Positions 17,966 to 32,974 of a stretch of DNA of 58,835 nucleotides are shown piece after piece. Location: the NCBI GenBank assembly GCA_028867785.1, contig JAGWFS010000002.1, forward strand, positions 1-58,835. The letters run 5' to 3'. How positions within the stretch are numbered: position 1 is the first letter of the stretch; each line of letters opens with the position of its first letter. Origin of the DNA: Nitrososphaerota archaeon. GTDB lineage: Archaea; Thermoproteota; Nitrososphaeria; Nitrososphaerales; Nitrosopumilaceae. The notes under the pieces were generated by a model. That model was not told the origin of the DNA and ran no database searches. It saw only the letters and a list, made by a program, of their open reading frames with translations. A program made the position numbers and the translations under genes.

Positions 17966-18907
17966 GTGAACGCCAGCGTCAAAGCATTGGTATTATTTGG
18001 TATTTTGATTAGTTCCGCAGGTATAGTTCCGGCTTTTGCAGCTTCTAGTTCTGCAAACGGCTCAAATTCCATGAGCAATACGACTGCAACTTCTGCTGAA
18101 GGCGGTTTGGTTCCTCCAGCTTACACGACTTCTCCTGGCAGCTCAGGTGCTGTAAGTACGACCACATCCACTTCTACAATTTCAGTTGCAACCGACAAGC
18201 AGTCATATAATGACGGGGACAAAATAACGGTATCCGGTACAACCCAAGACTATATGGGCGATACCCCGCTAACTCTGATTTTAAGAAACCCGATTGGAAA
18301 TGTAGTTAAAATTGATCAAGTTCCAGTAGGTCCGGACAAGACATTTTCAACGAGTCTGACTGCAGGAGGCGCTTTATGGCAGGCAGCTGGCACATATTCC
18401 ATATATGTGCAGTTTGGAGGTCCAGACAGGTCTGCTACTACAACATTCCAGTTCTCTGGCTCTCATATGGGAGGTAACACATTCCCGGTGGATGGTACTA
18501 ATTCTTCAGTAACGTACAGCATAACAAACGGCAAAGTTCTTGATATCAAGGCAGATCAAAATTCCAAATCACTTATTGTGTCAATCCAGTCATCTGGCGA
18601 TGGCTCCTTGACAATTACAATGCCAAGATCACTAATTGACGCAAAGAAGATCGATGGTACGGACGACCAATACTTTGTATTAAATGACGATCAAGAAAAT
18701 GATCAATTCCAAGAGACCCACACTACTGCTAGCGACAGGACATTGCAAATTCCATTCTCTGATGGCACATCTCAAATTGAGATAATTGGAACAATCGTAA
18801 ACATTCCAGAATTTGGAACAATCGCAGTAATGGTGCTTGCAATTGCAATTATATCAATAATTGTAGTTTCTACCAGAACTGGACTCAGGTTCACACCTAA
18901 GATGTAG
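17966..18907 (+). CDS. PEFG-tailed surface protein, paralogue 1
   Basis: GTG 17966 gives a clean signal peptide (NASVKALVLFGILISSAG) and is fixed by the TATA box. A Ser/Thr linker leads to an Ig-like domain (TDKQSYNDGDKITVSGTT...DRSATTTFQFSG), then a second beta domain (VTYSITNGKVLDIKAD...DRTLQIPF). The C-terminus has IPEFG, a hydrophobic helix (IAVMVLAIAIISIIVV) and a basic tail. That is the PEFG-CTERM signal, recognised by an archaeosortase that trims and anchors the protein. A full-length paralogue lies at 31955 and a shorter one at 55534. Confidence 0.85.
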   Translation: MNASVKALVLFGILISSAGIVPAFAASSSANGSNSMSNTTATSAEGGLVPPAYTTSPGSSGAVSTTTSTSTISVATDKQSYNDGDKITVSGTTQDYMGDTPLTLILRNPIGNVVKIDQVPVGPDKTFSTSLTAGGALWQAAGTYSIYVQFGGPDRSATTTFQFSGSHMGGNTFPVDGTNSSVTYSITNGKVLDIKADQNSKSLIVSIQSSGDGSLTITMPRSLIDAKKIDGTDDQYFVLNDDQENDQFQETHTTASDRTLQIPFSDGTSQIEIIGTIVNIPEFGTIAVMVLAIAIISIIVVSTRTGLRFTPKM

Positions 18908-31189: not shown

Positions 31190-31537
31190 TTGATCTCTAG
31201 TTGTATGTTCCTGATCCTGTTGGGTATCTGGGGATGCATGCCTGAATTTTCAAAAGATTGCATCGACATGAGCAATGCCGCTTCTACATATCTGGGAATT
31301 GTGGCAGGCGCGATAATAGGCGGTATAGTAAGCTGGTGGGTGTATAATAGACAGAAGAAGACTTCTAACACGCAAGAGCGTGTTTTATGCCGAATTGAAG
31401 AATTAGAGGAAAACCATGATGTGATATTGAAAAAACTGGCCAACTTTGACGACATGCATGAAACGGCCTTGGATGCAATGAGCGAGTTAAACCGAAAAGT
31501 CGACCTGCTTCTCAATACAAATGACAAGCGTCCGTAG
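31190..31537 (+). CDS. Small membrane protein with coiled-coil tail
   Basis: A membrane helix (NAASTYLGIVAGAIIGGIVSW) is followed by a charged coiled-coil segment (RIEELEENHDVILKKLANFD...MSELNRKVDLLLN). The assumed TTG 31190 precedes another hydrophobic stretch; ATG 31205 or the ATG at 31268 (MSNAAS) may be the real start. The function is unknown. Single-helix coiled-coil proteins often scaffold membrane complexes. Confidence 0.55.
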   Translation: MISSCMFLILLGIWGCMPEFSKDCIDMSNAASTYLGIVAGAIIGGIVSWWVYNRQKKTSNTQERVLCRIEELEENHDVILKKLANFDDMHETALDAMSELNRKVDLLLNTNDKRP

Positions 31538-31672
31538 GATGCCCTGACTATCAAACTGCTGCATACGTCTTAACCGACTTTCATATCGCTTAATCTTACT
31601 CTAATGATAATAATTATGAAAAATGAAAAACTGTAACTTTTTCTTAAATATGTGAAAGACGATTAAAGTACT

Positions 31673-31741
31673 GAAGAAAACCCATTAAACCAGACACACA
31701 CAAGTACCAAGGCATGCGCTTTGGTACTTTGGGTTTTCTTC
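31673..31741. ncRNA. Nested two-stem hairpin, candidate structured RNA
   Basis: GAAGAAAACCCA (31673-31684) pairs perfectly with TGGGTTTTCTTC (31730-31741). Inside it, AAGTACCAAGGC (31702-31713) pairs with GCTTTGGTACTT (31718-31729) with one G-T wobble, closing on the tetraloop ATGC. The right arms are contiguous; the left arms are separated by a 17-base bulge (31685-31701). That gives 24 paired positions in 69 bases. The strand cannot be told from the sequence because both read the same fold. It could be a small RNA, a regulatory leader or a mobile palindromic repeat. Confidence 0.5.
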
Positions 31742-31925
31742 CTTACGTCAGTTATAATGATTTTTAAGACTTTTTATTTCGTCAAAAGTTCGTCAGCTCG
31801 ATACTTTTGTTATTTTATCATCGTGCAATTCTAAGCATTGCATGTAGTGTTATTATTTGACTGGGCATGGACAAAGTTTGACAAATACATCTGATCCGGA
31901 AATTAAACATTTTTTTACAATTACT

Positions 31926-31932
31926 TATATAG
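31926..31932 (+). promoter_or_regulatory. TATA box of PEFG protein 2
   Basis: TTATATA ends 23 bases before the TTG at 31955. The flank (T-rich run, then AATTAC) resembles that of the paralogue at 17966 at the same spacing, so the paralogues kept promoter as well as coding sequence. This supports the unusual TTG start. Confidence 0.6.
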
Positions 31933-31954
31933 TGGTTAGGTCGACCAGCAATAG

Positions 31955-32974
31955 TTGAATAACAAGTTTAAAGGATTGCTGTTATTTGTCATTATGCTAG
32001 GTTCTATATCTGCTATTCCAGTGTTTGCTGCTTCCGGTTCTACAAATAATACAAGTTCAACTAATATGACAAGCTCTTCAGCAAGCTCAAACTCCATGAA
32101 CATGACCAAGTCTTCCATGAATTCTACTTCTACCGGCACTGTCCATACAACACCAACGCCTTCCAATCTGCCGAAGCCAGCTTACATGCTTAATTCTACT
32201 CAAAATCCATCTGCTGTAACGCCTTTATCCGGTGCTCTTGCAGTGACCGTCCAAACTGACAAGCCATCGTACAACGACGGGGACAAGGTAACAATATCTG
32301 GTATAACGAGAGACTATATGGGCGATACCCCGCTTACTCTTGAATTACGAAGTCCAGTTGGAAATTTAATTCAAACGGAACAGATTACGGTGGGTACTGA
32401 CAAGACTTTCTCAGTAACTTTGTCAGCTACCGGGGTGTTGTGGAAAGAACCAGGCACCTACTCAGTATATGTCCAATATGGCAGCAAAGATCGTTCTGCT
32501 ACTACAACATTCCAGTTCTCAGGCTCACAAGTATTATCAGGACCAAGTACAATTCCAGTGGATGGTACGAACTATTCAATCACTTATACTATTACCAATG
32601 GTAAGGTCCTAGACATCAAGGCAGACCCCCCGTCAAAGTCTTTGATTGTGACAATTCAAACAACCGGTGATGGCTTGCTTACAATTACAATGCCAAGGGC
32701 GGTAATCGATGACAAGAAATCCGATGGCACAGACGATCAATTCGTAGTAACAAACGATGGCGTGCAAAACAGTCAGATAAATGAGACTGCTACGACAGTT
32801 AATGATAGAACACTGGCAATTCCATTCAAGAATGGAACATCGCAAATTGATATCATCGGCACATTTGTGATTCCAGAGTTTGGTCCAATAGCCGCTCTAG
32901 TACTTGCAGTTGCAATTGTATCGATAATCGCAATATCGAAAAAGACCGGCCTGCGATTTCCAGCCCGATACTAG
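31955..32974 (+). CDS. PEFG-tailed surface protein, paralogue 2
   Basis: The TTG start (fixed by the TATA box) gives a signal peptide (NNKFKGLLLFVIMLGSISAI). A Ser/Thr/Asn/Met-rich linker is followed by an Ig-like domain (TDKPSYNDGDKVTISG...DRSATTTFQFSG) and a second beta domain (YSITYTITNGKVLDIKAD...DRTLAIPF), both closely matching the protein at 17966. The end is IPEFG, a hydrophobic helix (AALVLAVAIVSIIAIS) and a basic tail. It should be processed by an archaeosortase and displayed on the surface. Ligand or partner unknown. Confidence 0.85.
   Translation: MNNKFKGLLLFVIMLGSISAIPVFAASGSTNNTSSTNMTSSSASSNSMNMTKSSMNSTSTGTVHTTPTPSNLPKPAYMLNSTQNPSAVTPLSGALAVTVQTDKPSYNDGDKVTISGITRDYMGDTPLTLELRSPVGNLIQTEQITVGTDKTFSVTLSATGVLWKEPGTYSVYVQYGSKDRSATTTFQFSGSQVLSGPSTIPVDGTNYSITYTITNGKVLDIKADPPSKSLIVTIQTTGDGLLTITMPRAVIDDKKSDGTDDQFVVTNDGVQNSQINETATTVNDRTLAIPFKNGTSQIDIIGTFVIPEFGPIAALVLAVAIVSIIAISKKTGLRFPARY

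Follow-up and report, generated by a model that had tools for sequence, protein, structure and literature searches.

A candidate small RNA gene with a double hairpin from one clade within a genus of the Nitrosopumilaceae

Locus and neighbouring genes

The window is the whole stretch of DNA analysed, 58,835 nucleotides in length. Two of its plus strand genes enclose a gap. The upstream gene, at about 31190-31537, encodes a protein of 115 amino acids, and the downstream gene (31955-32974) encodes a PEFG-CTERM surface protein. Between them, positions 31673-31741 of the plus strand hold 69 bases which fold as a double hairpin.

The 115-aa protein is a probable membrane or coiled-coil protein, is present in 35 of the 37 genomes of the genus and has no Pfam family. 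A second protein with a PEFG-CTERM sorting domain is encoded about 14 kb away on the same strand (17981-18898) and is 61% identical to the downstream neighbour; around 15 matches to the PEFG-CTERM protein are found in the genome. Before the gene starting at 31955, positions 31880-31935 form a strongly conserved block (GACAAATACATCTGATC ... TTTTTTTACAATT-CTTATATA), probably a leaderless promoter that may include a site for a regulator.

Structure of the double hairpin

The outer stem is made of 12 perfect pairs between a 5' arm at 31673-31684 (GAAGAAAACCCA) and a T-rich 3' arm at 31730-31741 (TGGGTTTTCTTC). The inner stem joins 31702-31713 to 31718-31729, with 12 pairs including one G-U, and closes on the loop ATGC (31714-31717). 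The right arms of the two stems are contiguous, and the left arms are separated by a single-stranded bulge of 17 nt (31685-31701).

The minimum free energy of this fold is -31.9 kcal/mol, while 200 dinucleotide shuffles gave -11.1 +/- 2.8 and not one of them went as low (z -7.5). When 75-base windows were moved in steps of 10 along both strands of the whole 58.8 kb, the hairpin gave the lowest energy of all. A preceding sequence-only reading had described a double stem with this bulge and tetraloop in a gene-free gap, with more structure than a random sequence should show, and the sequence, the fold, the shuffles and the two flanking genes agree with it on each point.

No Rfam 15 family reached its gathering score in the window, and with relaxed thresholds only noise of at most 19 bits was seen. 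As far as Rfam goes, the earlier remark that the element matches no known terminator, tRNA or riboswitch thus holds. We take the one-sided bulge, without a paired internal loop, to be a misfit to the H/ACA, C/D box and BHB intron motifs. A small open reading frame was considered and rejected, as no reading frame is conserved across species and a 17-aa ATG frame occurs in the two closest genomes only.

Distribution among genomes

A covariance model built from six homologues was searched against the 37 genomes of the genus, and homologues were found in 11 of them. The carriers include the Thaumarchaeota MAGs REEA5, REEA16, REEA19, REEA25, Centralia_MAG_78 and Centralia_MAG_109 as well as Nitrosopumilaceae archaeon JOPF002. 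In every carrier the hairpin is located downstream of the same 115-aa gene. A tree of the 115-aa protein places the 11 carriers together with one further genome, G020, in a single group of 12 genomes with a support of 94/99. This twelfth member has kept the TATA region described below, and its hairpin is gone. The locus (L019, on G020:C33) is a natural case of hairpin loss with the promoter core retained, where part of the 3' arm may persist.

Outside the genus, a model of all 11 homologues found no convincing match in a sample of 250 genomes of the order. The sole match (G232) was weak at 24 bits and was discarded as chance-like, its sequence not being similar on inspection.

The sequence-only reading had also raised a mobile palindrome, to be checked by a search for other copies. 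The hairpin is single copy in its own genome, each carrier has one syntenic copy and none dispersed, and the core pattern had no match in viral contigs. A REP- or MITE-like element was therefore rejected.

Conservation, predicted promoter and predicted 3' end

Across the 11 loci an island of conservation with sharp edges extends over approximately 31580-31779, covering a promoter block, a TATA box, the hairpin and a T-rich end. The promoter block at 31595-31643 (TGATAATAATTAT ... CTGTAACTTTTTC) may contain a regulator site and a BRE site; its pairwise conservation in the 11 species is 0.58-0.98, against 0.18-0.25 over most of the adjoining upstream stretch, 31540-31579. The extended motif of the block occurs once in the genome, where no convincing second copy of either the promoter core or the upstream block was found.

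The TATA box, TTAAATA at 31644-31650, is present in all 11 homologues. The distance from its first T to the first base of the stem is 29 nt in ten species and 28 nt in one. The downstream gene serves as a yardstick, as its own TATA box is situated 29-30 nt before the start codon in carriers, which is the arrangement of a leaderless mRNA. Since the spacing at the hairpin is nearly invariant and matches that of this leaderless neighbour, transcription most likely starts at the base of the hairpin, with position 31673, where the outer stem begins, as the predicted start site.

On the other side of the hairpin, a conserved T-rich tail (ATTTTTAAGACTTTTTATTT, 31760-31779) is probably a terminator, or else a TATA box of the minus strand. 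Conservation is 0.74-0.75 in the tail, drops to 0.34 at 31780 and is lower beyond, and certain species, G010 and G049 among them, have a degraded tail.

The hairpin lies downstream of the 115-aa gene on the same strand, and a T-rich stretch comes after its inner stem, as would suit a terminator or a 3' processing hairpin of that gene. We regard this as very improbable, as the hairpin is found some 136 nt beyond the stop codon and behind a conserved promoter block of its own, sister species have the 115-aa gene without the hairpin, and an invariant unpaired bulge would not be expected in such an element.

Covariation and strand

Across the 11 sequences 95.4% of the stem cells are paired. Two-sided changes are seen at 4 pairs, 8 cells in all, and the covariation score was reached in 1 of 500 shuffles, while structures slid along the alignment were only 39-59% paired. 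The covariation is modest and comes from 11 related sequences, with some of the counts inherited, and the control is imperfect, given this relatedness and an alignment that had been fitted to the fold. A structured RNA, for which covariation in relatives had been proposed as a check, is supported: the fold persists in the homologues of 11 genomes, where some changes are two-sided and the distance to the TATA box is fixed.

Among the imperfect stem cells read on the plus strand, G-U occurs 13 times and A-C 3 times, and the plus strand fold is the more stable one in 10 of the 11 sequences. The bias towards G-U together with the greater stability indicates that the plus strand RNA is likely to be the conserved form. 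The loop varies among the homologues, and within the bulge the unpaired motif CCAGACACA (31690-31698) is identical in all 11, so that bulge, loop, G-U lean and stability together favour an RNA of the plus strand.

At 31760-31769 the minus strand reads as a TTAAAAA-like box, whose spacing to the right end of the hairpin hardly changes in 8 of 11 species. This box and the outer arms, which are mirror images, would fit a unit in which opposed promoters flank the palindrome, both strands are transcribed and each RNA begins with the same arm. The box is absent from 3 of the 11 species, whereas the plus strand TATA box is in all of them; wobble pairs and stability point to the plus strand, and a T-rich terminator accounts for the same bases. 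Transcription from both sides is accordingly an improbable arrangement in our estimate.

The near-perfect palindrome arms could also suit an element acting as DNA, i.e. a cruciform, a protein-binding palindrome or a recombination site. The fixed TATA spacing, the G-U bias of the plus strand and the conserved one-sided bulge speak against it, as do the single copy and the absence from viral contigs, and we give this explanation very little weight.

Search for targets

The invariant motif in the bulge is the proposed contact site. The exact 11-base complement of the bulge occurs nowhere in the genome except in the candidate gene itself. For the bulge core, 107 non-self 9-mer sites were counted in the 11 genomes, compared with 72 for a reversed control. 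Orthologous sites for this 9-base core form groups of four genomes at most, and the site of the four-genome group is antisense to the gene; no widely conserved site complementary to the core was found among the 11 genomes. A protein could be the partner of the bulge, as could an RNA that is recognised through a shorter or imperfect match.

Pairing of the bulge with the mRNA start of the downstream gene was no better than in shuffles (one species, L014, was left out of the scoring). This bears on another possibility, namely that the upstream promoter gives a long alternative transcript of the PEFG-CTERM gene, with the hairpin as a 5' leader element regulating it in cis. In the carriers the hairpin is indeed on the same strand and directly upstream of that gene. 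Besides the missing pairing signal, a strongly conserved TATA box belonging to the gene itself precedes its start codon by 29-30 nt, and conservation is poor (0.08-0.37) in the interval that separates the two units, 31780-31869. A leader is unlikely on this evidence, if slightly less so than transcription of both strands.

The proposed small RNA gene

We consider it probable that the locus is a stand-alone, lineage-specific gene for a small non-coding RNA, on the plus strand and with its own promoter, the double hairpin at 31673-31741 being the body of the RNA as judged from the fold, the covariance model matches and the pair counts. The interpretation draws on a fold beyond chance, syntenic homologues, the TATA spacing, the island of conservation, covariation, the lack of a conserved reading frame and the separate promoter of the downstream gene. 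Of the features expected of an archaeal intergenic sRNA, the sequence shows a position between genes, no conserved coding capacity, an apparent promoter of its own and a conserved RNA structure.

According to this model, the TATA box at 31644-31650 would start transcription at 31673 or within 1-2 bases of it, as suggested by the near-invariant spacing. The RNA would end at the U-rich 3' arm of the stem (~31741) or, with greater likelihood, within the conserved T-rich tail (~31765-31779), having a predicted length of about 70-107 nt. The outer stem would close off its 5' end, and the bulge would keep the invariant CCAGACACA unpaired; this bulge is likely the working part, either pairing with RNA or bound by a protein. 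The gene would have arisen, or been retained, in one clade of the genus and been lost once there. A bolder proposal, which we put forward as speculative, is a new type of archaeal regulatory RNA that starts inside its own sealing stem, acts via an invariant single-stranded bulge and perhaps has transcription entering the palindrome from both sides.

Comparison with known systems

No report of the hairpin was found in the limited set of papers searched, and few small regulatory RNAs of this archaeal phylum appear to be described in that literature. The present locus is a concrete candidate open to testing: its promoter, start site, fold and contact motif are predicted, and a natural loss is available for comparison.

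Thalassoarchaea ncRNA 1 (Tan1) is a 229 nt RNA of Group II Euryarchaeota found by RNA-seq (PMC5069720). The candidate, derived from sequence only, resembles Tan1, which comes from uncultivated marine archaea, as a putative conserved structured ncRNA; the likeness is one of description and not of compared sequences.

The nearest parallel is with archaeal intergenic (trans-encoded) small RNAs such as those of Haloferax, Methanosarcina and Sulfolobus (reviewed in PMC3432209). Unlike these, the candidate is known from its sequence alone, has no Rfam match in sequence or structure, and belongs to another phylum than the haloarchaeal and methanogen examples. Like them, the candidate gene is intergenic, has an apparent TATA promoter of its own, is structured and without an ORF, and is restricted to one lineage.
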